Origin: Opitutus sp. GAS368
GTDB taxonomy: Bacteria > Verrucomicrobiota > Verrucomicrobiia > Opitutales > Opitutaceae
Assembly: GCA_945874455.1 (NCBI GenBank)
Contig: CAMCHO010000010.1
Coordinates: 1 to 47,492 of the forward strand
DNA: 47,492 nt
Reading direction: 5' to 3'
Shown here: piece by piece, positions 24,382 to 47,277 of the stretch
Layout of the letters: every line of letters begins with the position of its first letter
Numbering within the stretch: the first letter of the stretch is position 1
Program-made: the position numbers and the translations under genes
The notes under the pieces: generated by a model
Told to the model about the DNA's origin: nothing
Databases searched by the model: none
What the model saw: only the letters and a program-made list of their open reading frames with translations

Positions 24382-25692
24382 ATGAACCTCAACGAACTTC
24401 CCCTCGAGCACGGGCTCCTTACGGATCGCAATATCGCGATCAAACTCGTCGGCGTGGGCGGCGCGGGCTCCAATGCCGTGGACCGTCTGAAAATGGAAAA
24501 TCTGGAGCGCCTGCAAATGGCGGTGATCAACACCGACTATCAGGCGCTCGCCAGCTCGCCGGTGCAGGACAAAGTACTCATCGGCATGGGGGTCACGCGT
24601 GGCCTTGGGGCCGGTGGTGATCCTGAGCTGGGCCGCGTCGCCGCCGAGGCCGACCGCGAGAAAATCGCGACGGTCGTGAAGAATTGTGATCTCGTTTTTA
24701 TCGTGACTGGGATGGGCGGTGGCACGGGCAGCGGCGCGTCACCGGTGGTGGCGGAGATCGCGGCGGAGACGGGCGCACTCGTCATCGCATTTGTCACCAT
24801 GCCGTTTTCGTTTGAGGGCGGTCGCCGTCTCAAGCAGGCCGAAGAGGGGCTCGCGGCGCTGCGCAAGGTGTGCGATGCGGTGATCCCGCTCCCCAATGAC
24901 GTGCTGTTACAGGAAGGGGCGGACAACGAGACGGTGCTCGACTCGTTTGCGCGGGCGGACGAGTGGATCGGCCGCGGGGTGAAATCGATTTGGGCGATGC
25001 TCTTTAAGACGGGGCTGATCAATCTCGATTTCTCGACGCTCCGGCAGGCCTTCAACCAACGCGGGGGCAAGACGCTCTTTAGCCTCGGTGAGGGCACCGG
25101 TGAAAACGCCGTGCTCGACACGATTTCGAGCCTCAAGCTCTGTCCGCTCCTGCACACACCGGAGTTTTCCCGCAAGGCCGACCGGCTGCTCGTGAATATC
25201 CTCGGCGGGGCCGATCTCACGCTCCCGAAAGTGAACGAGCTGATGAGTGCGATCACCGACCAGTTTGGTAGCGACTCCCATATTATTATGGGGGCGGTGA
25301 TTGACGAAACGATGGCGGGTCGCGTCGAAGTGTGCGTGTTGGGCACGAGCGACATGGGTGGTCGGGGAGTGGCCTCGCGGCGTTCGGTGCTGCCGGCGCG
25401 AGGGAAAACGCCGACCCTGTTGGCGCCCCGCTCGGTGGGGCCGACCGCGCACACGCCCGCGAATCAGCCGTCAGTCGTGGAGCAGGAAGAGTTGCCGGTG
25501 ACGAGCGGAGGGAGTGCTGCGGACAGCGCCGAGGCGCGGAATCTTCATGCGGCGAAGGTGGCCCAAGACGAGTTTGGTTTTGGGGAAGTCGAGCGTCGCG
25601 GGCATTTTGAGAAGACGGACCGGAACCTGTTCGACGGCCACGATCTCGACGTGCCGACCTACCTGCGCAAAGGGATCAAAATTTCGATTTGA
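24382..25692 (+). CDS. ftsZ: Cell division GTPase FtsZ with altered T7 loop
   Basis: FtsZ polymerises with GTP to form the division ring. The 436-residue protein has KLVGVGGAGSNAVDRL, NTDYQAL, RGLGAGGDPELG, the tubulin signature GMGGGTGSGASPVV (about residues 111-124), then the T7 loop as NLDFSTLR (214-221). In standard FtsZ this loop reads NxDFAD; the first Asp is kept (D216) and the second is Thr here (T219). A linker of about 85 residues leads to the C-terminal peptide LDVPTYLRKGIKISI, which resembles the usual FtsA-binding tail followed by a basic end. The altered loop could lower GTPase activity or change its metal dependence; polymerisation may still work. Confidence 0.95.
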   Translation: MNLNELPLEHGLLTDRNIAIKLVGVGGAGSNAVDRLKMENLERLQMAVINTDYQALASSPVQDKVLIGMGVTRGLGAGGDPELGRVAAEADREKIATVVKNCDLVFIVTGMGGGTGSGASPVVAEIAAETGALVIAFVTMPFSFEGGRRLKQAEEGLAALRKVCDAVIPLPNDVLLQEGADNETVLDSFARADEWIGRGVKSIWAMLFKTGLINLDFSTLRQAFNQRGGKTLFSLGEGTGENAVLDTISSLKLCPLLHTPEFSRKADRLLVNILGGADLTLPKVNELMSAITDQFGSDSHIIMGAVIDETMAGRVEVCVLGTSDMGGRGVASRRSVLPARGKTPTLLAPRSVGPTAHTPANQPSVVEQEELPVTSGGSAADSAEARNLHAAKVAQDEFGFGEVERRGHFEKTDRNLFDGHDLDVPTYLRKGIKISI

Positions 25693-25723
25693 AGCGGGTT
25701 GGGTGGTTTTTACCTGCTGGTGA

Positions 25724-26809
<1,086 letters not shown>

Positions 26810-29330: not shown

Positions 29331-30623
29331 TCATTTGGGTTGGAGCTTAGCTTTTGTTTCGGGCGGGAGCGGGGCGGTGGCGAGCCACGCTTCGGCGGCG
29401 GGGGCGTCGTGGAGGAGCCAATAGGAGAAGGGCCCGGTGAGGCCGGCGAGTGGGAGTGTGGCTGGTTTTTGAGTGGCGGCCCAGAGCGTGGCGGCGGCAG
29501 GTTCGCTGTGGGCCCACGCCGAAGTTGCTGAGACCAGCGCGGCTTGGCGGGCGGATTCGTGGGCGAGATTTTGGGCCCACGCGATGGCGCGGGCGGGTGC
29601 GCGTGCGGCCAGCAGTCCGGCGTAGTGGGTGGCGGCGGAATCGAGGCCGGGTCCCGGCGGGAGTTTTTCGAGGTAGGGCGCGGGTGCGGTGTCGTCGCGG
29701 CGGACCCACTCCGTCAGGATATTGTTCAACGCGAGACGTTGGACTTGGCCGGGGGGCAAGGTCGTGAGCCACGTAATCGCGGCGTCGGGGTCCTTGGCTC
29801 CGAGGGCACGAGCGACGGCGACGGCCGCGAAGGTCTGGGTCTCGCCGGGAGGCAGGAGTGGGACCAGCGTGGAGGCGCGTTGAGGATCGGTGGCGGTGAG
29901 AGTTTGGAGCGAGGCGAGCACGATGCGGTCGAGCGCCGGACCAGTGAGGATTTTCTGCGCAAGTTCGATGGCCTGGAGTGGATCGCGGGCGAGCACATTG
30001 TGCAGCGTGGTTTCCAGAGCGGGAGTGCGGTCGGCGAGGTCGGGCAGGCCCTGGGCCCAGGCCAAGGCGGCGGGTGTGTCGCGGGTGGCCCAAATATCGG
30101 CGAGCGCGCGGAGGGCATTCTCGCGAGGCAGACCCGGGGGCACGGCGGCGAGACGCTGTACCGCCGAGGGGAGCTCTTCGCGGGCGAAGCGGTCGAAGAG
30201 CAGGCTGTAGAGATTGGCTTCGTCGTGGGTGCGGACGAGTTCGCGGGCGAGCGTGAGGGCGCGGTCGGGCGCGGAGCGGGCGAGCGCGTCGAGCGTGGCG
30301 ATGAGGGCCGAGGTGCGTTCGGGTCCGAGCGGCAACGTGCGGGCGTGGGCGAGGGCGAGTTCGGGTTCGCGGGCGAGCAGCGCCAGAAAAGTGGAGCCGA
30401 ATTCCTGGGCAGGGGTGCGCGGATCCGGGGTGCCAAGGGCACGAGGGAGGTCCCCTGGAGTGGGGGCGGAAGCCGACGGCAGCGTGGGCGGGGGAGGTGT
30501 AGGGGTTGCGCTAACTGGGGCCGACGGCGGCGGTGCGTGCGGGCGCCGGAGGGTGACGAAGAGCACCCCGACCAGAACGAGCAACGCGGCGATGGGCCAG
30601 AAACGTGAAGTGAGTGTGGACAT
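29331..30623 (-). CDS. Membrane-anchored Ala-rich helical-repeat protein
   Basis: From ATG 30623 the product is 430 residues: a single N-terminal membrane helix (SRFWPIAALLVLVGVLFVTL), a Pro-rich linker, and about ten degenerate helical repeats of 30-35 residues with the recurring pattern ALAWAQxLP..., e.g. LALAHARTLPLG, AALAWAQGLPDLAD, AAITWLTTLPPGQ and RAIAWAQNLAHES. Similar anchored TPR/HEAT-like proteins are common in Verrucomicrobia and have no fixed function. The frame extends upstream to 30950 but only as Pro/Arg-rich residues, so the inner ATG is chosen. It may present a protein-binding solenoid in the periplasm; this is inferred. Confidence 0.7.
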   Translation of the reverse strand: MSTLTSRFWPIAALLVLVGVLFVTLRRPHAPPPSAPVSATPTPPPPTLPSASAPTPGDLPRALGTPDPRTPAQEFGSTFLALLAREPELALAHARTLPLGPERTSALIATLDALARSAPDRALTLARELVRTHDEANLYSLLFDRFAREELPSAVQRLAAVPPGLPRENALRALADIWATRDTPAALAWAQGLPDLADRTPALETTLHNVLARDPLQAIELAQKILTGPALDRIVLASLQTLTATDPQRASTLVPLLPPGETQTFAAVAVARALGAKDPDAAITWLTTLPPGQVQRLALNNILTEWVRRDDTAPAPYLEKLPPGPGLDSAATHYAGLLAARAPARAIAWAQNLAHESARQAALVSATSAWAHSEPAAATLWAATQKPATLPLAGLTGPFSYWLLHDAPAAEAWLATAPLPPETKAKLQPK

Positions 30624-30735: not shown

Positions 30736-33700
30736 TTACGGGAGCTCGTAGACTTCGAGGAGGGCGGTGCCCGTCGCGCCGGCCGCTCCCGTGACCTGCG
30801 CGGTGTAGGCGCCGGGCGAAAGGTTGATAAGGAGGGCCGCGTCGGCGCTCGTGGCACCGAACACGAAGGCACCCACGCGGGCGGCGGCGTCGACAATCGA
30901 GGCGGCATCGGCTGAGGTGGACCAACCGGAGTTCTGCGCGAGGACGGCACCGGCGGCGGAGAAAAGCGAAAGGGCCGGGCGCGGGAGTGCGCCGGTGACG
31001 CCGAACTGGGTGAGTGACGGGCCGGCGGCGCGGATGAGCACGCGTTTCGGCGCGGAGCCGCCGACGACGAGGCCGGAGATCAGTGTGCCCTCGCCGGTGC
31101 CGACGGCGGCTCGGATGGAGAGGTTGCTGAGCTTCTGCGCGCGGGAGCCGCCGGAGAGATCGTAAATCTCGATGAGGCCGACGCCGAGTTTGGCATCGGA
31201 GGCGCTCATCAGGGCGGTGTAGGTGCCGGGCGCGAGCGTGGTGAGAATCACCGAGTCGGCGCTACCGGCGGCGAGTGGGAAGGCGCCGGAACGAGCGGCG
31301 GCGTTGGCGATTTCGGCGGCGTTGCCAGTGGTGGTCCACCCGTTGTTGGTCGCGAGGAGCACGCCATTGGCGCGGAGTTCGAGGCGGGGCGCGGTGAGGG
31401 CAGTCGTGACTCCGAGGCCGCGGAGGGCGGGACCGACGGCGCGGAGGAGGACGGGTTTCGATTCGAGGCCGGTGATGACAAAGCCGACGATGGCGACTTG
31501 GTCGCCGCTGCCGGCGGTGGTGCGCGTAGAGAGATTTACGATACGCTGCTGGGCGAGGGCGGCGGAGGTGTCGGCGAAGCCGGTGAAGGTTGTCGTGGAT
31601 CCAGCAGCGGTGGTGGCGGTGGCCGTGATACCCCCGGTTTCGGGAGTGAGGGCAAGGACGAGGACCTGCGAGGTGGGCGTGGTGATGGACAGACGGCCAA
31701 GGGAATCCACGATGCCGGTGCCGGCGTCCAAGCCGAAGGTTCGATCGGGTAGGACCATGGCGAGGCGATTGCGCCCGAGACCTTCGACCGAGGAAGCGGG
31801 GGCGCCCGCGATGGGGTTGTCGTTGCACAGCACGACCACGACGGCCGGTCCCGTGGGGCTGACGATCGCAAGCAGTTGAGCTGAATTGGACGAGCTGCCC
31901 GCGGTGTAAAAGCCAGCATAGCCGGCAGTGGAGCCGGTATCGGGAGACTTCTGCGCACTCAACGATGACGATCCGGCGAGCAGGCCGTTCAACGCGCCTC
32001 TCTCGGAGATGCTGCCGGTAACGGAGACGGGACGGATCATGAGGCCGGACGTGGTGGTGGCAGGAGGCGCCGGCACAGGCATGACGCCGCCGGTGGATGC
32101 GGCCGCTGGGCGGTAAGCCGCTGCGGTGAAATCGAACGCACCGCTGTCGCTGATCGCGAAGCCTTGGGCGATGGACGTGACGGTGTGAGCGAAATAGCCA
32201 CCCGACGGGAGGTCGTCGAGGAAGGGGGAGATACGTTCAAAGGCGAGCAGAACGCCGGAGTTTTCGTCGTTCACCAGCAGGGCAAACGCACCGCCCCTCG
32301 ACCCACCGGGGCCGCCCGAGGCGGGGATGGTGCCAATGTAGGTGCCCGCGTAGCTGCGGGCGATTACGCGAAGGGTGACGGTCGAGGAAGTGACGGTGCC
32401 GGCGGAGTTGGTGACGGTGACGGAGTAACCTCCGGAGTCTGAAGATCGGAGATCGGCGATGGTCAGAGTGGCGGCGGTGGCCCCGGTGAGCGCGGTTCCG
32501 TACTTGTTCCACTGATACGTAGGCGCGGGCGCGCCGGTGGCGACGACGGTGAACGTGGCGCTGCGGCCAGCGAGGGCGACGACGTTGCCGGGTTGGCGCG
32601 TGAACACGGGGGCGGTCGCGGTGGCGCTCACCGTGAGGCGTGCCAGCGAACTGATGACAGAGCGGACAATGTTGGTGACGACGACGTCGTAACCGGCGGC
32701 GTCGGTGGATTGGACGTTGGTGAGCGTGAGCGCCGCGGAGGTGGCGCCGGCGAGGTCTGTGCCGTTCTGGCGCCACTGGTAGGTGGGGGCGGGGGTGCCG
32801 GTGGCGGTGACGGAGAAGGCGGCGGTGCCGCCGGTTTGCGCGACTTGCGGGAAGGGTTGCGTGGTGATGCGGGGCGTGACGTAGGTGAAGGGAGGCTGCG
32901 CAACCGCGAACGAAAGGTCGACCGGGGCCGCCGCATTGTAGGAGGAGTTGCCGACTTGGGAGGCGCGGACGACGACGGTGCCGGCGGCACCGGTGAGGGT
33001 GAGCGTGTTGTCGCTCACCGTGGCGGGACCGGAGACGAGGGTGAAGGTCATGGGGAGGCCGGAGGTCGCGGTGGCGACGAGGGTGAAGGGGCCGGCGGTC
33101 GAGAGCTGCGTGGTGATCGTCGACGTGAAGGCGATCGACTGCGCGAGTTTGCCGGGGGTGAGAGTGATCTCGGCGCTGAACGTGAGATCATCGATTCCAA
33201 GGCCGTCATCGCTGCCGGCGTCGTCGACGTCGGTCCAGCGGAGGACGAGAGTTTGGCCGGGAGCCCAGGTGAGGCCGGTGATGGTAACGGGGGCGATCAC
33301 GACGCGATTGACCGCGAGGTTACCGTCGAGGGAGGACGTGGTGGCGGTGAAAATGGGGGCGGTGAAATCGAGAGCCGTGGCGGCGGTGAAGCCGCCGTTG
33401 GCCACGGTGTTGAGATCGATCGCCCCGGTGGCGTAGGAGAAGGCGAGCTTGTTCGGGATGAGGGCACCGCCGTGGCGCCACTGTTCGCCTGTGTAGCCGA
33501 GCGTAAACGTGGAGAGGGTTTGGCCGGTGGTATTGACAAATGAAATACCGTAGCGGGCGGCGAAGGTGCCGCTGCTGAGGGAGCCGAGGGCGCGGTCGGG
33601 GGCGGAGGTGGTGCCGTAGGCATGGGTGGCGCCGGAATTACTGGCGCCGTTGTCGAATTTGAAGAGGGCCACGCTGCCGGAGCCGGAGCCTTTGGCAAAA

Positions 33701-36700
33701 CTCCAGCCAGCCAGACCGCTGGCACCGACGCCGTTGGGTTGAGCGGCTTCGAGAGCGTAGGGACCGGGGCCGGTGAAGGTAAACGTGCCAGTGGCGGGCA
33801 GGCCGTCGAAGTTCTGCACGTAGGTGCCGCCGGCGTAGTTGGTCTGCGGGCCGGCGGGAGGGAGCGTGACGGTGAGCGCGACGGCGGTGGTGGGGGTGGC
33901 GGAGGCGACGGAGTTGGTCACGATCACGTCGTAGTTACCGGCGTCGGCGGTGGTGATGGCTGTGAGGGTGAGGGTGGCACCAGTCGCGCCGGAAACGGTC
34001 GCAGCGTTCGTGACGGCACCATTGACGAGGGGGACGCCGCCCTTGCGCCATTGATAGCTGAAGGGGGTGGTGCCGCTGGCGGCGACGGTGAACGTCGCGT
34101 TGTTGCCGTAGAGAAGGGTGGCGGCGACCGGCGCGGTGGTGATCGTGGGCGCAGTGGGTATGACGGTGAGCGCGACGGCGGCGCTCGTGATGCTGCTCAC
34201 GGAATTGGTGACGACGACATCGTAAGGGCCGGCGCTGGCGTCGGCGGCCTGGACGTTGGGGAAAATCAACGTGGACGTGGTGGCGGAAGCGTGGCCGGTG
34301 ATGTTCACGGCGTTCTTGCGCCACTGATACGCGAGGGGCGTGGTGCCGCTGGCGACGACCGTGAAGGTGGCGCTGGTGCCGGCATTGGCGGTCTGCGCGG
34401 TCGGCGCAGTCGTGATCGTGGGTGCGACGGCGGCGGCGGTCGTGAAGGTTAACACGGTGTTCGCGGCGGGATGGAGCGTGTTCGTGGCGGTGTCGGTGAT
34501 TTGGGCGGCGACGATCGTGACGGTGACGGTGTCATTGTCGGTGAAGTTGACGGGCGGCGTAAACGTGTAGGTCGTCGGGCCGCCGGTGACGGTGGCGGCG
34601 ATGCCGCCGTTGAGTGCGCTGTTGATGGTGAACCAACCGGTAGCGACGGCCACGGATTGGTTGAAGGTGACGGTGATCGGGGCATTTCCGGCGACCCCGG
34701 TGGCGGCGGTGACGGGGGTGGTAGCGGTGACCGCCGGGATGAGCGGGGCGCCTGCGGCCGTGTTGAGCGTGACCTTGAGATCGTCGATGCGCCAGTTGGC
34801 GGTGTTGGCTGCGGGGCTGCCAGCGCCGCTGTGACCGTAGATGCGGAAAGTGATGGCGGCGCCGGTCGTGCCGGTGACGGCGGTAAAGGCCGGTAATTGC
34901 AGCGCCCACACGCTGGTGGCGCTGAGGGTGCCCGTGGCGACTGCGGTGGTGTAGTTGTCCGTGTTGGAGAAAATTGAATACGCCTGGGGGCCTGTGCTGG
35001 TGCTACGGGACCCGAAGGTGAAGGCGGAGACGGACAGTTGTTTGTTGGCGGCGGGGGTGAGGGTGAATTCGAAAAACGCCGAGCCGGCGGCGGAAGTGTT
35101 CAGAGCGCCGATCTGGGCGGCGGCGCCGGCGTTGTTGCCAGCGGAAAAATCGCTGTAGGTATTCGCAACCGAAACGGCGGTGACGAGCGTCGGGGTCCCG
35201 TTATTGTTGCCCGAGGTGACCGTGCCGCCGGTCACGTCGGCGGGCAGACCGCTGGTGGGCGCGGCGGACTCCGTGCCCGCTCCGGCACCGAAGTTCCACG
35301 CCACTGTGCTCGGTGAGGCGACGGCGCTGACGGTGAGGACGGCTACTGCACTGGTGGCGTCGGGGTTAAGCCCATTTGTAACGACCACGTCAAAATTTCC
35401 GGCGTCGGTGAGTTGGGTGTTTGTCATTGTGAGCGTAGCGGTGGTGGCCCCGGTGAGGGTGGAGCCGTTGCCGGTGACGCCGTTGGTGACAGGGGTGCCG
35501 CCTTTGCGCCATTGGTAGGTGAACGGTGCGGTGCCGGTCGCGATGACCGTGAACGTCGTGATGTTACCGACGATGGCAGTCTGGGTGGCAGGTGGGAGGG
35601 TAATGGTCGGGGCGGCGGCTGTGACGGTGAGGGTGGCCCCGGCGCTGGTGGCGTTGGGCAGCGTCGGGTTCGCGACGACGACGTCGTAGGTGGCGGCGTC
35701 GCCGGCTTGGACGTTGGTGATGGTGAGGGTCGCACTAGTGGCGCCGGTGATGTTGGCGGTATTGGTCAGGTTGTTACCGCCTTTGCGCCATTGGTAGGCG
35801 AGGGTGGGGGAGCCGTTGGCAGAGACGGTGAACACGGCGGTGGTGCCGGCGACTTTGGTGAGGGAGGCTGGCGGGGTGGCGATGATGGGCGGCAGGCCGG
35901 TGATGACCAAGGCGGCCCCGGCGCTCGTGATGGAGCCGATCGGATTGGTAACGACGACGGTGTAGATCGCCGCGTCGGCGGCTTGGACGTTGGTGAGCGT
36001 GAGCGTGGCGGTCGTGGCGGAAGCGTTACCGGTAATGGGATCGTCGTTATTGAGCCACTGATACGTAAGCGTGGAGGCGGGGTTTGAGGTAGCGGTCACC
36101 GAAAACCGGGCGCCGCCGCTGACGGCGGTGGTCTGGGTCGAGGGCGGCGTGGTTATGGTGGGAGCGCCGGTGGCGGTTTGGCCGTCAACCTGCGCGCGGA
36201 GGGTGGGGGCGAACGCGGAGAGTGCGGGATCGGTGAAAAACGTGTAACCGGTGTCGGTCTGGAGTTGGGCGGCGGAGGTGACGTATTGTTGCCACGGGTT
36301 GCTGCGGACGCCGGCGGTATTGGGAATCTTGATGGCGATCACGCGAGTCGTGGCCGTGATGCGGCTGAGCGCGGTGCCGGCGCCGAGGGGGACGACGACA
36401 GCGATTTTCCAAGTGAAGGCCGGGATGGAGACACCACTCGCGATGGTGGAGCCGGCAAATCCACCGGGGCCGGCGATGATGAGGACCTCGTTACCGGTAT
36501 CCGCGAGCGTGCGACAGTAGGTCTCGAAGCTGGCCCAGACGCCTTGGTTGTTGTCGGGGGCCTGAGGCATCATGTTCGACATGAAGAATACGACGTCGTT
36601 GTCGGCGCGGGTGACGGTGCGGTCGCCGGAAGGGCAGAGGTGGCCGCGGTCGTAGCCCGAGCCGCTGTAGTCCGTCGGCAGCACGGGGTAGAAGCCGGTG

Positions 36701-36984
36701 GGGAGGGTGGTGTCTTGGAAAAAATCAGGAGAGCGACCGCTGGAGCCGACGTCACCGGAGGTGAGATTCCACGCGACCCAGTTGGCCTCGCGGGTGGTGT
36801 CGTTGTAGCTAAAGGCGTATTGGGCCCGCTGGATGAGGAAGTTCGTGCGGTTAACGACCGGATTGGTGGCGGCGGCACTCGGATTGCCGGTCTGCATTTG
36901 CAGCACCGGGTTGATCGTCGCGAAGGCGGTGACGGCGGACAGGAATAAGGCGACGAGGGCGAGGGCGGAGGAGTAAATTTTCAC
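30736..36984 (-). CDS. Giant secreted DNA/RNA nonspecific nuclease with Ig-like stalk
   Basis: A 2,082-residue secreted protein starting at GTG 36984 with a signal peptide (cleavage near AFA, about residue 22). Residues about 30-265 form a beta-beta-alpha-metal nuclease: DRGH (112-115, catalytic-type His), SNMMPQAPDNNQGVWASFE with metal-site Asn and Glu, and EVLIIAGPGG. Then come, in order, three Ig-like domains with the Y-Q-W-x-K core, a jelly-roll-like segment, a Big_5-like domain (ITVTFNQSVAV), two Ig-like domains, a second jelly-roll-like segment, an MBG-like domain, two more Ig-like domains and a beta-rich region. The end is two copies of one module (about 1811-1948 and 1949-2082). The nuclease likely degrades extracellular DNA; the stalk probably displays it away from the cell. 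Confidence 0.88.
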   Translation of the reverse strand: MKIYSSALALVALFLSAVTAFATINPVLQMQTGNPSAAATNPVVNRTNFLIQRAQYAFSYNDTTREANWVAWNLTSGDVGSSGRSPDFFQDTTLPTGFYPVLPTDYSGSGYDRGHLCPSGDRTVTRADNDVVFFMSNMMPQAPDNNQGVWASFETYCRTLADTGNEVLIIAGPGGFAGSTIASGVSIPAFTWKIAVVVPLGAGTALSRITATTRVIAIKIPNTAGVRSNPWQQYVTSAAQLQTDTGYTFFTDPALSAFAPTLRAQVDGQTATGAPTITTPPSTQTTAVSGGARFSVTATSNPASTLTYQWLNNDDPITGNASATTATLTLTNVQAADAAIYTVVVTNPIGSITSAGAALVITGLPPIIATPPASLTKVAGTTAVFTVSANGSPTLAYQWRKGGNNLTNTANITGATSATLTITNVQAGDAATYDVVVANPTLPNATSAGATLTVTAAAPTITLPPATQTAIVGNITTFTVIATGTAPFTYQWRKGGTPVTNGVTGNGSTLTGATTATLTMTNTQLTDAGNFDVVVTNGLNPDATSAVAVLTVSAVASPSTVAWNFGAGAGTESAAPTSGLPADVTGGTVTSGNNNGTPTLVTAVSVANTYSDFSAGNNAGAAAQIGALNTSAAGSAFFEFTLTPAANKQLSVSAFTFGSRSTSTGPQAYSIFSNTDNYTTAVATGTLSATSVWALQLPAFTAVTGTTGAAITFRIYGHSGAGSPAANTANWRIDDLKVTLNTAAGAPLIPAVTATTPVTAATGVAGNAPITVTFNQSVAVATGWFTINSALNGGIAATVTGGPTTYTFTPPVNFTDNDTVTVTIVAAQITDTATNTLHPAANTVLTFTTAAAVAPTITTAPTAQTANAGTSATFTVVASGTTPLAYQWRKNAVNITGHASATTSTLIFPNVQAADASAGPYDVVVTNSVSSITSAAVALTVIPTAPTITTAPVAATLLYGNNATFTVAASGTTPFSYQWRKGGVPLVNGAVTNAATVSGATGATLTLTAITTADAGNYDVIVTNSVASATPTTAVALTVTLPPAGPQTNYAGGTYVQNFDGLPATGTFTFTGPGPYALEAAQPNGVGASGLAGWSFAKGSGSGSVALFKFDNGASNSGATHAYGTTSAPDRALGSLSSGTFAARYGISFVNTTGQTLSTFTLGYTGEQWRHGGALIPNKLAFSYATGAIDLNTVANGGFTAATALDFTAPIFTATTSSLDGNLAVNRVVIAPVTITGLTWAPGQTLVLRWTDVDDAGSDDGLGIDDLTFSAEITLTPGKLAQSIAFTSTITTQLSTAGPFTLVATATSGLPMTFTLVSGPATVSDNTLTLTGAAGTVVVRASQVGNSSYNAAAPVDLSFAVAQPPFTYVTPRITTQPFPQVAQTGGTAAFSVTATGTPAPTYQWRQNGTDLAGATSAALTLTNVQSTDAAGYDVVVTNIVRSVISSLARLTVSATATAPVFTRQPGNVVALAGRSATFTVVATGAPAPTYQWNKYGTALTGATAATLTIADLRSSDSGGYSVTVTNSAGTVTSSTVTLRVIARSYAGTYIGTIPASGGPGGSRGGAFALLVNDENSGVLLAFERISPFLDDLPSGGYFAHTVTSIAQGFAISDSGAFDFTAAAYRPAAASTGGVMPVPAPPATTTSGLMIRPVSVTGSISERGALNGLLAGSSSLSAQKSPDTGSTAGYAGFYTAGSSSNSAQLLAIVSPTGPAVVVVLCNDNPIAGAPASSVEGLGRNRLAMVLPDRTFGLDAGTGIVDSLGRLSITTPTSQVLVLALTPETGGITATATTAAGSTTTFTGFADTSAALAQQRIVNLSTRTTAGSGDQVAIVGFVITGLESKPVLLRAVGPALRGLGVTTALTAPRLELRANGVLLATNNGWTTTGNAAEIANAAARSGAFPLAAGSADSVILTTLAPGTYTALMSASDAKLGVGLIEIYDLSGGSRAQKLSNLSIRAAVGTGEGTLISGLVVGGSAPKRVLIRAAGPSLTQFGVTGALPRPALSLFSAAGAVLAQNSGWSTSADAASIVDAAARVGAFVFGATSADAALLINLSPGAYTAQVTGAAGATGTALLEVYELP

Positions 36985-40681: not shown

Positions 40682-41710
40682 ATGAGTGACCTTACAATCC
40701 CATCCCAAGCCCGTAAGGTGGTAATCATTGGAAGTGGTTTCCACCGGTCGGTGCTCGGTGATCTCCAGCACCCGCTGGCTAATTGGTCGCTGCTCCTGCA
40801 GGAGGTCGCGCGCCGGGTCGGCTGCCGGCTGGAGCCATCCGAATGTAAGGAGCCGACGCTGGCCTGGGAAAAGGTCTTGTCGCAATATGTCAGGAAGAAG
40901 CGCGGTGAGCTGTCCGTCAGCGAAGCGGAAAAACCGTTGAAGCAGGCGGTGGCGGAAGTGCTCAGGGAAGCTACGGCGGGGAGCCAAGCGGTCTATCGGG
41001 CGCACGCCATAACCCGGCAGGTCGAGGCGTTTCTGGCGCGCGGTGGCGGCCACTTGATCTCGCTCAACTTTGATCAGCTATGCTATGACGGATCTAGCGT
41101 GCTGAATAATCCGGTCAATCTCCGCAAGGGGGCGGACGGTGTCAGGAAGCCGGACCTGAGGCTCCTCCACGAACGGATCGTGCGTAAGGCGGGGACGTCA
41201 GCGCCTTCCATGATCTGGCATCCCCATGGATGTATCCGGCGCTTCGATTCCATCAGGCTCGGCTACCGAGATTACGGTCTGCTCCCGGCTTCGTACTTGC
41301 ACGCTTTCGCTCAGTTCAAGAGGTGGGAAAGCGAGCGGACTAAGTCTCCCAGGAAGTCAGGTAGGCAAGGCTCGAAGGATTTTCGCCAGCGCTTGCTGGA
41401 TGCGCTAGAGTCCTTGGATTGCGGTCCAAAAAATGCGAGCGACCGGGCGGCGGATCATTGGGTGACGCGGTTCATGGTGCTCCCGGTGCAGGTGATTGGC
41501 GCTGGCATCTCTGAGCATGAATTGGGGCTCCGGTGGCTGTTCGTGCAGCGGCAGCGAAATTTCCAGCGGCATCCGGAAAATGGGCCCCCTATTTTTCACC
41601 GGGAGCTTCAGCCCTTTGCAGGACCGTGGATGAGTGACGTAGTTGATCACTCCTCTTGGTCCCAAGCTTGGTATACGGTTTTCGGCCCCCCCGCCTCGCC
41701 TGCGCAATAA
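40682..41710 (+). CDS. SIR2-like domain protein, possible defence effector
   Basis: A 342-residue soluble protein. The N-terminus KVVIIGSGFHRSVLG (12-26) resembles the nucleotide-binding loop of SIR2-like proteins and is followed by LANWSLLLQEVA, a usual next helix. LISLNFDQLC (125-134) corresponds to the family's T-N-Y/F-D block and IWHPHGCI (178-185) to its catalytic-His block. VIGAGISEHELGLRWLF (271-287) matches the closing G-x-S-x-x-E...W segment of SIR2_2-type proteins. Such domains bind or cleave NAD and occur as effectors of several antiphage systems. No known partner gene is adjacent; 14 nt downstream starts the RCC1-repeat giant. The SIR2 call is from motifs only, and the defence role is inferred. 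Confidence 0.68.
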   Translation: MSDLTIPSQARKVVIIGSGFHRSVLGDLQHPLANWSLLLQEVARRVGCRLEPSECKEPTLAWEKVLSQYVRKKRGELSVSEAEKPLKQAVAEVLREATAGSQAVYRAHAITRQVEAFLARGGGHLISLNFDQLCYDGSSVLNNPVNLRKGADGVRKPDLRLLHERIVRKAGTSAPSMIWHPHGCIRRFDSIRLGYRDYGLLPASYLHAFAQFKRWESERTKSPRKSGRQGSKDFRQRLLDALESLDCGPKNASDRAADHWVTRFMVLPVQVIGAGISEHELGLRWLFVQRQRNFQRHPENGPPIFHRELQPFAGPWMSDVVDHSSWSQAWYTVFGPPASPAQ

Positions 41711-41724
41711 GGATTTTATCTGGT

Positions 41725-44700
41725 ATGAAATCCGTCCTAATCCGGCCCCTCAGCCGATCCTGGGCTGCCGCCATCTCCAGCGTTATTGTTGGAGCAGGGC
41801 TGCCGCACCTCGCGTTCTTGATCGTATTGTGTACGTCCAGTCTCGTTGCGCAGACCGCGCCCGTGATCGCGACCCAACCTGCTGACCAGGTGGCGTCAAT
41901 TGGGGGCATTGCGAAGTTTTCCGCGTCTGCAAGTGGAACGGGCCCCTTCAGCTACCGCTGGTATCACGAAGGTGCCGAAATCGGCGGAGCGAGTGATTCA
42001 TCACTGACGATCAACCCCGTGAGACCAACTGATGAAGGAGACTACTTCGTGGAAGTACGCAGTGACGCAACCCAGATCAGCAGTATTGCTGTCGGACAGG
42101 GAGTCGCCATGTATGTGCAAGGGGGCAAGCTATGGGCGGCTGGAGATAACACTTACGGCCAGCTTGGTGTAGGTTTCGCCTCGTCGATTCCATCGCCAGT
42201 ACCCCTGCAGGTGGCTAGCGGAGTGGTCAGCGTGGCTTGTGGGCAGTACCACACGCTCTTCGTGAAAGCTGATGGCACCCTCTGGGCGACGGGCTTCAAC
42301 AGTTCTGGCCAGCTGGGTGATTGGACGATTACAAACCGAAGCACGCCGGTTAAGGTCGCGAGCGGGGTTTCAAGCGTGGCAACCGGAGAAAGTCACACGC
42401 TATTCGTGAAGACCGATGGGACGCTGTGGGCGATGGGCGCAAATGGATCTGGCCGGCTTGGAGATGGTTCGACGACGAACCGGAGTTCGCCGGTGCAGGT
42501 TGCCAGTGGGGTAAAGGGAGTGGCCTGCGGGGGGGCGCACACACTGTTCGTGAAGACGAACGGGACACTCTGGGCGACGGGCAGCAACAGCTACGGCCAG
42601 CTTGGAGATGGGACGACAACGAACCGCAGCACGCCAGTTCAGGTGGCGAGCGGGGTTTCCAGCGTTTCAGCCGGAGGCTGGTGCACTCTTTTTGTCAAAA
42701 CAGACGGTACCGTGTGGGCGTCGGGCTACAACGGGCTAGGCCAACTAGGCGATGGCACGATTACAAACCGCAGCACGCCAGTTCCGGTGGCGAGCGGGGT
42801 AACGGGAGTGGCCTGCGGGGGGGTGCACACGCTGTTCGTAAAGACGAACGGTACACTCTGGGCGACGGGCTACAACAGCTCAGGCCAACTGGGCGATGGG
42901 ACGATTATAAACCGCAGCACGCCAGTTCAGGTGGCGAGCGGGGTTGCCAACGCAGCGGGTGGATACCAGAGCACCCTTTTCGTCAAGGCCGACGGCACGC
43001 TTTGGGCGATGGGCTCGAACGAATGGGGTCAACTATTTCGTGGATTCAAGACTTTACCGGTGAAGGTCGCGAGGGGCGTTTCAAGCGTGGCAGCCGGAGA
43101 CAGTCACACGCTATTCGTAAAGACCGATGGGACGCTGTGGGCGTCGGGCTTCAACGGGCAAGGCCAGCTGGGTGATGGGACGATTACAAACCGAAACATG
43201 CCGGTTAAGGTCGCGAGCGGGGTTTCAAGCGTGGCAACCGGAGAAAGTCACACGCTATTCGTGAAGACCGATGGGACGCTGTGGGCGATGGGCTACAACG
43301 GGCAAGGCCAGCTGGGTGATGGGACGACGACGAACCGGATTTCGCCAGTGCAGGTGGCGAGCGGGGTTTCAAGCGTGGCCTGTGGGCAGGACCACACTCT
43401 ATTCGTGAAGAGGGATGCCACTCTCTGGGCGACAGGTGACAACATCTACGGCCCGCTTGGAGATGGGACGATGACAAACCGCAGCACGCCAGTTCAGGTG
43501 GCGAGCGGGGTTTCCAGCGTTTCAGCCGGAGGCGACTACACTCTTTTTGTCAAAACAGACGGTACCCTGTGGGCGGCCGGTCGGAACGACTGGGGCCAAC
43601 TGGGCGATGGCACGACTAGAGGAAAGTTTGGTGCCCAAGTGCAGGTGGCGAGCGGTGTGTCTAGTGTGGCAGCTGGACGGGCCCATACTCTCTTAGTAAA
43701 AACCGACGGAACGCTTTGGGCGACAGGTGACAACAGCTACGGCCAGCTTGGAAATGGGACGACGACGAACCGGAGTCGGCCGGTGCAGATGGCGAGCGGG
43801 GTTTCCAGCGTTTCAGCCGAAGGCGACGGCACTCATTTTATCAAAACAGACGGTACCCTGTGGGCGGCCGGTCAGCACCACTGGGGCCAACTGGGCGATG
43901 GCACGACGACGAATCGCGGCACGGCGGTACAGGTTGCATCTGGGGTGGTTAGCGTGTCGGCTTCTATTTTCGTAAAGGCTGACGGAACACTATGGACGAA
44001 TATAAACGGGCTAGGCGTAGGCGATGGCGTTCCTTCGTCTGGTGGAATCACCTCAACTCCCTTGCGGACGGTTGGCGGGGTCGATTCGGTAATTGCGACT
44101 CTGACTCTAATGCCCGCTATAACTTCTCAACCGCAGCCATGGGTAGGCTCGATTGGGCAGTCGGTGAGCTTTTCCGTAGTGGCAACGGGCACGGCACCGC
44201 TAGCGTACCAATGGCGCAAATTCGGGGTAAGCATCGCAGGAGCCACAGCCTCGACTCTCGCTCTCTCGGCTGCGGTTGAGGCGGATGCAGGCAACTACGA
44301 CGTCCTCGTGTCTAATGCCGTGGACAGCGTGACCTCTGAATCCGCCACACTGCGGTTCAGATTCAGGCCTGTGATCAATTGGGCGACGCCGTCGGCGATA
44401 AGCCAAGGCACGGCTCTTTCAGGCACGCAGTTGAACGCGACATCAAGCGTACCGGGCACTTTTGTCTACACGCCCGCGGTTGGGTTGGTGCCCGGCGGCG
44501 GCAGCCAGTGTCTCTCCGTAAAGTTTACGCCAGATGACACGACTAACTATATCACCGCGACGGAAACTAGGTGGGTCATGGTGGATTACGTGCCGGTGAT
44601 CACATCCCAGCCGCAATCTCAGTCCGTTGCGGCGGGCCAGAGAGTAAGTTTCGGGATTGTGGCCAGCACCGGAGCTACGGCCGCGGTCGCGGGCGGTTGG

Positions 44701-47277
44701 TCGCACAGCTTGTACTTGAAGACGGATGGCACGCTTTGGGCGATGGGAGATAACGGTAGCGGTCAGCTCGGTGACGGGACCAAAATCAGCCGCAGCACAC
44801 CTGTCCAGGTGGCGACCGGGGTGAGCGCCGTCGCTGCGGGCACTCAACATAGCCTGTACCTGAAAACGGACGGTACGCTCTGGGCTGTAGGTAGCTCTAC
44901 CCATTATTGGTTTGACGTAGGTAGCCATAGTTGGGTCGACGCTAGCAGCGGCACCGCAGTGCAAGTGGCGAGCGGCGTAAGATCCCTGGCGGCGGGTCCA
45001 GAGCACAGTTTGTATTTGACGGCGGAGGGCGCTCTTTGGGCGATTGGATACAACACCTATGGCCAACTGGGAGACGGGAGCACCAATTCGCCGAGCCGGC
45101 CAGTGCAAGTTGCGGCCGGAGTGAGTTCCGTCGCAACCGGAAGTTATCATACCCTATACGTTAAAACGGACGGCTCGCTTTGGGCGATGGGAAAGAATAC
45201 CTATGGCCAACTGGGGGATAGAACTACGACGGACCGCCGTACTCCCGTGCAAGTGGCGAGTGGGGTGAGCACGGTTGCAGCGGGTGTCGACAGCAGTTGG
45301 TATATAAAGTCTGACGGAACACTTTGGGTGATGGGGCATAATGATTACGGCCAACTCGGTGTCGGACTTTATGCCGTCGTGCCTACTCCCGTGCAGCGAG
45401 CTATTGGCGTGGTTGCGGCGGCCGCAGGACAACAACATGGCCTTCACCTTAAGACGGACGGTGAGCTGTGGGCTTCTGGAGAAAACTTGTCGGGACAATT
45501 CGGTAATGGGAGCACGTCAATGAGTAATTATCCTGTGAAGGTGGCGGGTGGCGTGAGCGCAGTGGCCGCTGGCTGGAACCACACTCTGTATGTCAAGACG
45601 GATGGGACGCTCTGGGTCATGGGCCGCAATGTTGACGGGCAATTGGGGGACGGAGCCTCCCCATCAAGTCGCAGCACCGCCCTGATGCTGGCAGGTGGGT
45701 CCCTCCCGCTGAGTTACCGGTGGTCCAAGGATGGGATCCCGATCTCCGGGGCGACTGGAGCGACGCTGACGTTGAGCAGTGCGCTGCCGGCTGACGCGGG
45801 AAATTACACGGTGTCTCTAGATACCAGTAGGGGCACCGCGATCTCGAGCCCGGCCACCCTGCGGTTTCTGCAATCAATCACGTTCGGCGCGCTGTCGTCC
45901 AAGGGGTTCGGCGACTCCGTCTTTTCCCCGGACGCCACGGCGAGTTCGGGCCTCGCCGTCAGCTATGCGAGCTCCAATCCCGCGGTAGCCAACGTCAGCG
46001 GCGTCACGGTGACCATCGTGGGCGCGGGCACGGCGACCATCACCGCGAGCCAGGCGGGCAACGGCACCTACGCTGCGGCGACGGAGGTGCAGCAAACGCT
46101 CGTGGTCGGAAGGGCGAGCCAGTCGATCACGTTCGGAATGCTTGCGACCAAGGCCTATGGGGACGCGCCCTTCAGCCTCACCACGACGGCGAGCTCGGGC
46201 CTGCCGGTGAGCTATGCCAGCTCCAACCCGGCAGTCGCGACCGTAAATGGCAACACTGTGACAATTGTTGGCTTAGGCTCGACAACGATCACCGCGAGCC
46301 AAGTGGGGAACTCGAACTACAATCCCGCGACGAACGTAAACCAAACCCTGAACGTGGTTTTGTCGCCTTCGATCACGACGCAGCCGGTGGCGCGTCTCGC
46401 CGGAACAGGCACGGGAACAATGTTTGCGGTGGTGGCGAACGGCACCGCCGCGCTGAGTTATCAGTGGAAGAAGAACGGCACCACGCTCGCTGATGGCGGA
46501 ACAATATCGGGTGCCACCACCGCAACCCTGTCGTTGTCGAATCTCACTACGGGTGACGTTGGCAACTATACCGTGGTGGTGGCAAACGCGGGTGGTACGG
46601 CGACGTCGAACGCCGCCACGCTGACGGTGGTGGACGCGCAGGCGACGCACGCGGTCGTCGGTTCGGGTTACATTGCCGGCGGTACGGTGACCTTGACGCA
46701 GACCCTAACCTTTTCGGGTAGTTGCTCGGGCCTGCGCTGGCAGATTCTGTTGCCGACGGGCTGGAGCTATGCCTCTGGTGGCGGCAGTCAGGGCGACGTA
46801 AAGCCCTCCGCTGGGGCGACGAGCCTGCTGGAGTGGGCGTGGACCAGCGTGCCCGTAAGTCCGATCACGTTTACCGTCACACTCAACGTGCCCGTGGGCG
46901 AGACCGGGGACCGCAACGTGACGGCCTTGTCCGTTTTCCGGGTGAGCGCCGGGGCGGCGAACCTGCTTGTGACGCCGGATCCCTTGGCGGTGTCGCAGGT
47001 GACGACGCACAGTGCGGACGCGGATCGCAACTTCCGCATCAGCCTCGTCGAGCTGACGCGCGTGATCCAAATCTACAATACGCGCAACGGCACCAACCGC
47101 ACGGGGTGCTACGCCGTGCAGGCGGGGACGGAAGACGGCTTTGGCGTGGACGCGGCCCGTGCTGCTTCAGCTACCGTCACGCTGGGCGCGTACCACAGCG
47201 CGGACTCAGATCACAACGGCAAGATCAGCCTCTTCGAACTCACTCGGGTGATTGAGCTATATAAGGTTCTTCGCTGA
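41725..47277 (+). CDS. Giant secreted RCC1-repeat / Ig-like protein with EF-hand-like C-terminal module
   Basis: From ATG 41725 the product is 1,850 residues with an N-terminal signal helix (processing near SLVAQT). Approximate order: Ig-like domain (45-125); RCC1 array of 14 units (128-770) with the pattern VKTDGTLWATGxNxxGQLGDG; Ig-like domain and a linker (795-965); a second array of 7 units (985-1322); Ig-like (1322-1382); two MBG-like repeats (1382-1545); Ig-like (1545-1637); a cohesin-like beta domain (1638-1755). The C-terminal module (1758-1850) has two matching halves, ADADRNFRISLVELTRVI and ADSDHNGKISLFELTRVI, resembling dockerin/EF-hand calcium loops. RCC1 arrays fold as seven-bladed propellers and bind proteins. 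A surface adhesion or ligand-binding role is likely but unproven. Confidence 0.88.
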   Translation: MKSVLIRPLSRSWAAAISSVIVGAGLPHLAFLIVLCTSSLVAQTAPVIATQPADQVASIGGIAKFSASASGTGPFSYRWYHEGAEIGGASDSSLTINPVRPTDEGDYFVEVRSDATQISSIAVGQGVAMYVQGGKLWAAGDNTYGQLGVGFASSIPSPVPLQVASGVVSVACGQYHTLFVKADGTLWATGFNSSGQLGDWTITNRSTPVKVASGVSSVATGESHTLFVKTDGTLWAMGANGSGRLGDGSTTNRSSPVQVASGVKGVACGGAHTLFVKTNGTLWATGSNSYGQLGDGTTTNRSTPVQVASGVSSVSAGGWCTLFVKTDGTVWASGYNGLGQLGDGTITNRSTPVPVASGVTGVACGGVHTLFVKTNGTLWATGYNSSGQLGDGTIINRSTPVQVASGVANAAGGYQSTLFVKADGTLWAMGSNEWGQLFRGFKTLPVKVARGVSSVAAGDSHTLFVKTDGTLWASGFNGQGQLGDGTITNRNMPVKVASGVSSVATGESHTLFVKTDGTLWAMGYNGQGQLGDGTTTNRISPVQVASGVSSVACGQDHTLFVKRDATLWATGDNIYGPLGDGTMTNRSTPVQVASGVSSVSAGGDYTLFVKTDGTLWAAGRNDWGQLGDGTTRGKFGAQVQVASGVSSVAAGRAHTLLVKTDGTLWATGDNSYGQLGNGTTTNRSRPVQMASGVSSVSAEGDGTHFIKTDGTLWAAGQHHWGQLGDGTTTNRGTAVQVASGVVSVSASIFVKADGTLWTNINGLGVGDGVPSSGGITSTPLRTVGGVDSVIATLTLMPAITSQPQPWVGSIGQSVSFSVVATGTAPLAYQWRKFGVSIAGATASTLALSAAVEADAGNYDVLVSNAVDSVTSESATLRFRFRPVINWATPSAISQGTALSGTQLNATSSVPGTFVYTPAVGLVPGGGSQCLSVKFTPDDTTNYITATETRWVMVDYVPVITSQPQSQSVAAGQRVSFGIVASTGATAAVAGGWSHSLYLKTDGTLWAMGDNGSGQLGDGTKISRSTPVQVATGVSAVAAGTQHSLYLKTDGTLWAVGSSTHYWFDVGSHSWVDASSGTAVQVASGVRSLAAGPEHSLYLTAEGALWAIGYNTYGQLGDGSTNSPSRPVQVAAGVSSVATGSYHTLYVKTDGSLWAMGKNTYGQLGDRTTTDRRTPVQVASGVSTVAAGVDSSWYIKSDGTLWVMGHNDYGQLGVGLYAVVPTPVQRAIGVVAAAAGQQHGLHLKTDGELWASGENLSGQFGNGSTSMSNYPVKVAGGVSAVAAGWNHTLYVKTDGTLWVMGRNVDGQLGDGASPSSRSTALMLAGGSLPLSYRWSKDGIPISGATGATLTLSSALPADAGNYTVSLDTSRGTAISSPATLRFLQSITFGALSSKGFGDSVFSPDATASSGLAVSYASSNPAVANVSGVTVTIVGAGTATITASQAGNGTYAAATEVQQTLVVGRASQSITFGMLATKAYGDAPFSLTTTASSGLPVSYASSNPAVATVNGNTVTIVGLGSTTITASQVGNSNYNPATNVNQTLNVVLSPSITTQPVARLAGTGTGTMFAVVANGTAALSYQWKKNGTTLADGGTISGATTATLSLSNLTTGDVGNYTVVVANAGGTATSNAATLTVVDAQATHAVVGSGYIAGGTVTLTQTLTFSGSCSGLRWQILLPTGWSYASGGGSQGDVKPSAGATSLLEWAWTSVPVSPITFTVTLNVPVGETGDRNVTALSVFRVSAGAANLLVTPDPLAVSQVTTHSADADRNFRISLVELTRVIQIYNTRNGTNRTGCYAVQAGTEDGFGVDAARAASATVTLGAYHSADSDHNGKISLFELTRVIELYKVLR
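42110..44060 (+). repeat. First RCC1-coding repeat array (14 units) with internal 855-bp duplication
   Basis: Fourteen direct repeats of roughly 150 nt, each coding one RCC1 unit. Copies six units apart are nearly identical in DNA: 42345-42438 equals 43200-43293 over 94 nt, and 42624 onward matches 43479 onward, both with an 855-bp offset. This points to a recent segmental duplication or gene conversion. Confidence 0.85.
44680..45690 (+). repeat. Second RCC1-coding repeat array (7 units), diverged
   Basis: Seven further RCC1 units coded by direct repeats. They are less alike than in the first array (YLKTDGTLWAMG, YLTAEGALWAIG, YVKTDGSLWAMG, YIKSDGTLWVMG and so on). One unit carries an aromatic insertion (HYWFDVGSHSW). 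The lower similarity suggests this array is older. Confidence 0.8.

Follow-up and report, generated by a model that had tools for sequence, protein, structure and literature searches.

A putative exported nuclease on an immunoglobulin-like stalk and its conserved downstream partner gene in Opitutus sp. GAS368

What use could a bacterium have for a nuclease that forms the N-terminal head of a protein of 2,082 residues? The question is raised by a gene in a 47,492-nucleotide stretch of Opitutus sp. GAS368 (assembly GCA_945874455.1, contig CAMCHO010000010.1, positions 1 to 47,492 of the forward strand; hereafter the window), which encodes an apparently exported, multi-domain protein referred to below as the stalked nuclease (Table 1). 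It is read here as an exported DNA- and RNA-degrading enzyme that forms a two-gene unit with a membrane-tethered partner, the partner acting as escort or inhibitor; the probability of this reading is put at roughly 0.55. A preliminary description of the window had already proposed a very long nuclease on an immunoglobulin (Ig)-like stalk, and the open reading frame is confirmed, as are, by Pfam, the Endonuclease_NS domain and seven Ig stretches.

The open reading frame starts with GTG and measures 2,101 residues from stop to stop. A full-length orthologue (L198/L034, G001:C151; G, C and L numbers are handles for genomes, contigs and loci) shares 94% identity across residues 1-2082. Codon comparison with this orthologue gives a ratio of nonsynonymous to synonymous change (dN/dS) of 0.275 for the whole gene and 0.168 for the nuclease domain, and two relatives keep the same GTG start. 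On this comparative evidence the frame is a maintained gene, and a chance frame is excluded. Residues 1-22 are likely a Sec/signal peptidase I signal peptide, with K at position 2, a hydrophobic core and a site between AFA and T, as read by eye and with a crude hydrophobicity script. Promoter and terminator scans yielded no usable signal.

The catalytic head matches Endonuclease_NS (PF01223) with 154.5 bits against a cut-off of 23, covering profile positions 15-219 of 223. Its closest PDB sequences are 2o3b (E 4e-63) and 1zm8 (E 5e-63), presumably both Anabaena NucA, with about 225 residues aligned; entries for EXOG, EndoG and Serratia-type nucleases come next, at E 3e-11 to 5e-18. Alignment to 2o3b and 1zm8 places R84, D112, H115, N146 and E154 in the head, where H115 is taken to be the catalytic histidine, N146 the metal-binding asparagine, E154 the glutamate and R84 a supporting arginine. 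R84, H115, N146 and E154 do not differ in any of 35 distinct Ig-bearing relatives, and D112 is shared by 33 of them. Among 59 distinct relatives without Ig domains, H115, N146 and E154 are identical in all 59, D112 in 58 and R84 in 54. The nonspecific nuclease with intact catalytic His, Asn and Glu that had been proposed is thus upheld. Because the catalytic residues are retained across relatives, cleavage of DNA and RNA by the head is very likely. NucA is a single-domain enzyme. The domain described here aligns with it at E ~1e-63 and carries the same catalytic residues; NucA stands alone, whereas here the PF01223 domain is the head of a 2,082-residue stalked protein. It is conceivable that the protein is an adhesin or matrix component whose head binds nucleic acid without cutting it, as the stalk is very long and the end module is common to many presumed exported proteins. 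This is very improbable, since the catalytic residues do not vary among the Ig-bearing sequences, and the lowest dN/dS falls in the nuclease domain (0.17).

Behind the head, Pfam finds seven Ig_3/I-set stretches and one Big_5 domain, which agrees with the seven Ig-like segments and the Big_5-like segment of the preliminary description. Other parts of that description have no counterpart in Pfam. No MBG family matched the protein at E<=1, although a relative, L082, has four MBG_3 stretches, and the jelly-roll-like segments (residues ~555-749 and 1046-1369) are a visual impression to which no Pfam family corresponds. An NCBIfam scan of the protein matched nothing. Residues 1684-1805 (31570-31935) are predicted to form a barrel similar to fHbp and TbpB (VIA-align Z ~10, 94 residues, 2.7-2.8 A), and a PDB sequence search with these residues gave zero matches; the likeness may be that of a common small barrel. 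Synonymous divergence (dS) from the G001 orthologue drops to 0.04-0.09 in residues 555-1543 (32356-35322), compared with 0.15-0.17 at both ends, and this drop suggests recombination or gene conversion within the stalk.

The duplicated end that had been described consists of two consecutive modules, each about 133 residues long (residues ~1813-1946 and 1947-2082). The AlphaFold2 model, built from 27 aligned copies, has a predicted local distance difference test score (pLDDT) of 91.7. In VIA-align its fold reaches Z 10.0 to the C-domain of Tk-SP (3afg; 2.6 A, 96 residues), 9.4 to the collagen-binding domain of ColG (1nqj; 2.5 A, 92 residues) and 9.1 to the pre-peptidase C-terminal (PPC) domain of a B. 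anthracis collagenase (5sv5; 2.3 A, 93 residues); the best Foldseek match has E 2.8e-4. Matches to these three proteins span Z 9.0-10.0. Sandwiches other than PPC score nearly as high (DeCLIC N-terminal domains Z 9.1, LipL32 and GOLD 8.8); together with calpain domain III and sandwiches of the claudin and haemagglutinin types, they cover Z 7.5-9.1. These are read as sharing a common fold. As modelled, the module is a PPC-type beta-sandwich, with a modest margin over the other sandwiches. The PPC profile (presumably PF04151; Pfam, E<=1), NCBIfam and the PDB sequence set gave zero matches for the module. PPC domains have the predicted fold in common with it, and both occur as C-terminal tandems on exported enzymes; they differ in that no sequence match links them to the module, which is ~133 residues long and is not C-terminal in 5 of 39 frames. 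In passages of PMC3327674, the PPC domains of one studied protease are stated to bind proteins, and PPC domains are described as normally being cut off after secretion. The analogy suggests that the module, too, may bind a surface or a substrate.

A two-copy profile of the module gave 68 matches in the fetched loci of the genome of the window, two of them counted twice. They fall in 39 fetched open frames, fragments included, after one duplicate was dropped and C269 and two tiny edge pieces were left out; the module lies within four residues of the stop in 34 frames and elsewhere in five. A Pfam scan of 30 module proteins placed it with Ig domains in 14, Lamin Tail Domains (LTD) in three, and DUF1800, CotH and matrixin in two each, while single proteins carry an M60 or S8 peptidase, beta-lactamase-type, phytase-like or nuclease domain, all drawn from the first 25 of 56 matched families. 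In a phylum sample the module pair is present in 15 of 288 genomes (one at 1e-4 only), 12 of the 15 in the same family; as nine candidates were scored per genome, copy numbers are lower bounds. A type IX secretion system sorting domain was set aside as the leading idea, given the five frames in which the module is not C-terminal and the PPC-like fold; a search for SprA_N of the corresponding machinery gave no match in this genome, nor in any control genome. The motif strings RAIGPSL, RAVGPSL and RAAGPSL were not found in the open-access literature searched. Two module copies are interrupted by one TGA each (L191, G000:C2:66616-66885; L026/L193, G000:C17:24860-25297) and are apparently decaying members.

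A search of relatives for the same pairing of head and stalk had been proposed. Within 200 genomes of the same family, a profile search finds PF01223 in 89, at 112 places: 28 lie in frames of at least 900 residues, 69 in frames of 250-450 residues and 15 elsewhere, some frames being cut by contig ends. Long and short classes coexist, and because 28 of the 112 places lie in such long frames, the long class is a family-level feature. The closest matches in the named collection are metagenome-assembled genomes labelled Opitutaceae, Opitutae, Opitutus, Lacunisphaera, Didemnitutus and Verrucomicrobia. All of the first 23 rows (L053-L075) show the nuclease followed by Ig domains, those of L053 being partial and cut short, and the pairing is found across many loci.

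The far end varies, tail labels other than those of Pfam having been read by eye. The module pair ends a nuclease with Ig stalk in the present gene and in L054, L055, L056, L061-L065, L068, L070, L104 and L200. A beta-solenoid-like end occurs in L082, for example, where the four MBG_3 stretches are followed by weak DUF7305 and Bactofilin matches. The tail of L077 contains 'GLSNLVEYALGLDP', and a paralogue in the same genome (L181, G000:C12:42138-45752; a frame of 1,629 residues with seven Ig domains) has a short tail labelled EF-hand- or dockerin-like. The contig ends 0.3 kb downstream of this paralogue, which places it outside the partner counts below. Judged from these sequences, the far end is swapped among at least four kinds on one head and stalk. 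Such interchangeable ends indicate that the C-terminal part behaves as a generic terminal module, not as part of the enzyme. Nucleases in G404, G269 and L080, all three outside the family, likewise have a signal-peptide-like start, a PF01223 head and extracellular-type beta domains, and are followed by the partner gene; they differ in carrying TIG and Lamin Tail Domains (by Pfam in G404, by eye in G269 and L080) where the present protein has an Ig stalk and a PPC-like end. The head on an Ig stalk is a family-wide architecture and a variant of the already known NucA-type nuclease. The titles and abstract openings listed from the open-access literature searched contained no description of a stalked nuclease or of its partner.

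The preliminary description had found no obvious immunity gene beside the nuclease and had counted this in favour of scavenging. This is not the case: at many nuclease loci of the phylum, a conserved gene for a putative membrane-anchored repeat protein lies directly downstream on the same strand. As this partner gene adjoins the nuclease, the lack of a neighbour cannot argue for scavenging. In the window it begins 112 nt beyond the nuclease stop. All 17 partner rows have an N-terminal hydrophobic segment in a scan that covered the N-terminal part of the protein, and a Pro/Ala-rich linker usually follows. In L057 and L071 the segment bears a lipobox, which would place the body of the partner outside the cytoplasm. 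The body has a period of 32 residues (autocorrelation z 36 at lag 32 and 27 at lag 64, against 30 shuffles), and dN/dS of the gene is 0.33.

For the partner, none of Pfam, NCBIfam, PADLOC and the PDB gave a credible match. Pfam ELYS (9.4e-6 in the window; 11 of 14 members) is below its cut-off and, like PDB 7te2 (0.0061) and the NCBIfam rows (best 0.00095, DegQ, in one member), was taken as a match of helical composition. PADLOC, run on four proteins, matched neither the nuclease nor the partners of the window and of L237, and its Cas1 row (0.0058) for the partner of L080 was taken as chance. In Anabaena, NucA has a known inhibitor, NuiA, as stated in passages of PMC4890671. NuiA is not among the 15 Pfam families matched at E<=1 by 14 partner members, and a search for it (PF07924) gave no match in this genome, nor in any control genome.

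How firmly is the partner tied to the nuclease? Clustering of neighbours suffered from the overlapping frames that GC-rich genes produce, and the linkage rests on tblastn and profile tests. By tblastn, the partner is directly downstream and in the same orientation in L054/L198, L194 (where it follows the stalk), L104, L070, L082, L062-L065, L068, L075, L057, L056, L069, L200, L071 and L080. The last is on a contig labelled Spartobacteria, and its nuclease is without an Ig domain. Measured to the first plausible start, the gap between the two genes is 16 nt in L062-L065 and L070, 11 nt in L200 and 9 nt in L080. A profile of 14 partners detects the gene at 15 of 19 named Ig-nuclease loci, the window included, the 19 being those with ~0.85 kb or more of downstream DNA. 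The four others (L055, L061, L067 and L077) gave no partner in the profile search, as confirmed at a looser threshold.

Strong partner matches (E 8e-51 or better, with a clear score gap only down to 6e-79) occur at 32 places in 31 of the 200 family genomes. A weak match with a broken frame in G073 (8e-51) was kept for its position; the next match, in G063 (1.4e-49), is on a contig without a listed PF01223 place. Fifteen of the 32 places are behind an Ig nuclease or stalk (G000, G001, G005 with a stalk, G014, G026, G031, G073, G114, G125, G146, G159, G172, G177, G185 and G197), adjacency in G026, G031, G125, G146, G159, G172 and G185 being judged by coordinates. One is behind a bare nuclease of 284 residues (G177:C65), three lie behind a stalk or module end that is cut off by the start of the contig (G004, G094 and G196), and five have too little upstream DNA (G002, G006, G034, G130 and G151). 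Counted by nuclease, 30 family genomes have an Ig nuclease by open frame or local Ig profile. Seven are outside the count owing to contig ends (G002, G006, G069, G094, G130, G158 and G162), and the partner is beside the nuclease in 15 of the 23 testable genomes, with none in eight. Irrespective of position, it is present in 21 of the 30 genomes with and 10 of the 170 without an Ig nuclease (p 3e-14, genome relatedness ignored).

The partner is also found behind nucleases without any Ig domain (L237, L080, L246 and L247), and a control set of 37 module-bearing loci of the same genome, with 0 to 6 kb and often ~1 kb of downstream DNA, contains no partner-like gene. Thus the partner tracks the nuclease domain, not the stalk or the end module. 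In a tree of 38 nuclease domains, chosen from a larger set of loci, 34 verrucomicrobial rows form one branch (100/99) in which rows with and without a partner are mixed; the partner label changes four times, against 7.0 in shuffles. This fits an old association with losses, with repeated gain as an alternative.

Several observations weigh against a tight functional pair. Eight of the 32 partner places lack a nuclease in the 2.5 kb upstream of them on the same strand (G008, G029, G061, G072, G087, G109, G182 and G193). No partner stands beside the Ig nuclease in G029, G047, G080, G081, G120, G136, G151 and G164, and ten Ig-nuclease loci with enough downstream DNA have none (G029/L055, G047, G080, G081 with 485 residues and one Ig domain, G120/L077, G136, G151 on C91, G164, L061 and L067). 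Because of these ten loci, the partner is not indispensable. The body of the partner is only weakly acidic (isoelectric point (pI) ~6 in the window, with a range of 4.9 to 9.0 across the rows), which is unlike an inhibitor that mimics DNA; the nuclease domain is acidic as well (pI 5.0). Moreover, linkage within one bacterial family may in part be inherited synteny. Taken to its end, this last point would make the protein purely a scavenging enzyme, with an unrelated neighbour kept by inherited gene order. In passages of PMC4890671, NucA-type enzymes are most often assumed to serve nutrition; similar repeat proteins are common in these genomes as weak matches, and the ten partner-less loci also favour this explanation. 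It is nonetheless rather unlikely. MnmA, the next gene along, was found in only four searched loci, two of which are the same contig. In a sample of 387 genomes of the phylum, partner matches below 1e-100 were found in six genomes, of which two are outside the family (G269 and G404), and both of these partners are directly downstream of a differently built PF01223 nuclease. Weaker matches (1e-40 to 1e-51) occur in eight genomes, and none adjoins a PF01223 gene.

In the favoured reading, the gene product would be a NucA/EndoG-type DNA/RNA nuclease exported by Sec, its N-terminal catalytic head held on a stalk of Ig-like and other domains, and its end formed by a PPC-like module pair that is used on many other exported proteins of the lineage. 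The nuclease most likely degrades extracellular nucleic acids, as food or as matrix DNA, at or near the cell; the surface-displayed or matrix-bound site proposed in the preliminary description is putative. With the downstream partner it would form a conserved two-gene unit, in which the partner is tethered to the membrane and its body of 32-residue repeats probably faces the periplasm. There it would probably bind the head while the nuclease is being exported and escort it, inhibit it or do both; escort and inhibitor are the two simplest roles. An escort could keep the very long precursor export-competent (six secretin matches occur in the genome), and an inhibitor could keep the head silent until it leaves the envelope. 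A broader version is put forward tentatively, at somewhat less than even odds: the two genes would be a module of Verrucomicrobiota that stays together while the extracellular end of the nuclease is rebuilt, as an Ig stalk with a PPC-like pair or beta-solenoid, as TIG/LTD or as nothing, the partner sometimes being an orphan. The membrane-tethered repeat protein, dedicated to the nuclease, would then represent a new family of inhibitors or export escorts that are specific to nucleases and act outside the cytoplasm.

The position of the partner also recalls immunity genes. The nuclease could be an antibacterial weapon, a contact-dependent or secreted toxin whose downstream gene encodes a periplasmic immunity protein. 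The partner is adjacent on the same strand, with a gap of ~9-16 nt in some loci, whatever the stalk, and partner genes without an upstream nuclease resemble orphan immunity genes. Passages of PMC3482391 mention HEAT- and ankyrin-repeat immunity proteins (Imm-HEAT and Imm-Ank), and passages of PMC13133936 describe Sel1-repeat immunity proteins of PldB and an outer-membrane lipoprotein immunity protein. Like the partner, these are repeat proteins beside a toxin-like enzyme; the partner differs in its 32-residue repeats, its membrane tether and the lack of a credible Pfam family, and any immunity role is putative. NucA-type enzymes, believed to be nutritional, are believed sometimes to be bacteriocides (passages of PMC4890671). 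However, the weapon is decidedly unlikely. Polymorphic and contact-dependent toxins carry a C-terminal toxin domain behind a trafficking domain; here the catalytic domain sits at the N-terminus as the head, not at the C-terminus as a tip that could be swapped, and the Pfam matches of the protein include no toxin-trafficking family, which weakens the toxin/immunity explanation. A nuclease would also have no target in the periplasm, the would-be site of the partner, and nearly all immunity proteins listed in the passages of PMC3482391 are described as cytoplasmic. The ten loci without a partner argue against an essential antitoxin. Together with the N-terminal position of the nuclease and the lack of a C-terminal toxin tip, they make scavenging its likeliest use.

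The coordinates of the features are collected in Table 1. Elsewhere in the window, a frame of 1,873 residues (41656-47277, forward strand) with 17-18 RCC1 repeat stretches and three Ig_3 stretches is a giant of similar style, and FtsZ- and Obg-family genes (24382-26809, forward strand) lie a few kilobases from the nuclease.

Table 1. Features of the stalked nuclease and its partner gene, in window coordinates.
Feature	Position	Strand	Basis
Stalked nuclease, open reading frame of 2,082 residues, apparently exported, multi-domain	30736..36984	(-)	Pfam, orthologue comparison
Likely signal peptide, residues 1-22 (VKIYSS..AFA)	36919..36984	(-)	Read from sequence, crude hydrophobicity script
DNA/RNA non-specific endonuclease domain PF01223, residues 47-252 (R84, D112, H115, N146, E154)	36229..36846	(-)	Pfam, PDB alignment
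Ig domains 1-3, residues 276-554	35323..36159	(-)	Pfam Ig_3/I-set
Segment without Pfam match, residues 555-749	34738..35322	(-)	Pfam scan, no family
Big_5 domain, residues 750-849	34438..34737	(-)	Pfam, 42.5 bits
Ig domains 4-5, residues 859-1045	33850..34410	(-)	Pfam Ig_3/I-set
Segment without Pfam match, residues 1046-1369	32878..33849	(-)	Pfam scan, no family
Ig domains 6-7, residues 1370-1543	32356..32877	(-)	Pfam Ig_3/I-set
Residues 1544-1812, second half (~1684-1805) a predicted small beta-barrel	31549..32355	(-)	AlphaFold2, VIA-align
C-terminal module copy 1, residues 1813-1946	31147..31548	(-)	Profile, alignment of copies
C-terminal module copy 2, residues 1947-2082, predicted PPC-like beta-sandwich	30739..31146	(-)	AlphaFold2, pLDDT 91.7
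Partner gene, 430 residues: N-terminal membrane segment, Pro-rich linker, 32-residue repeats	29331..30623	(-)	tblastn, profiles

What began as one giant nuclease is thus an architecture found across the family, together with a partner gene that can be tested. Most worth following are this partner and the C-terminal module. The module, which no Pfam or NCBIfam model matches, points to a large group of apparently exported and uncharacterised proteins in this bacterial family. Should the partner turn out to act as inhibitor or escort, NucA-type nucleases would be subject, outside the cytoplasm, to a form of control that is new for them.

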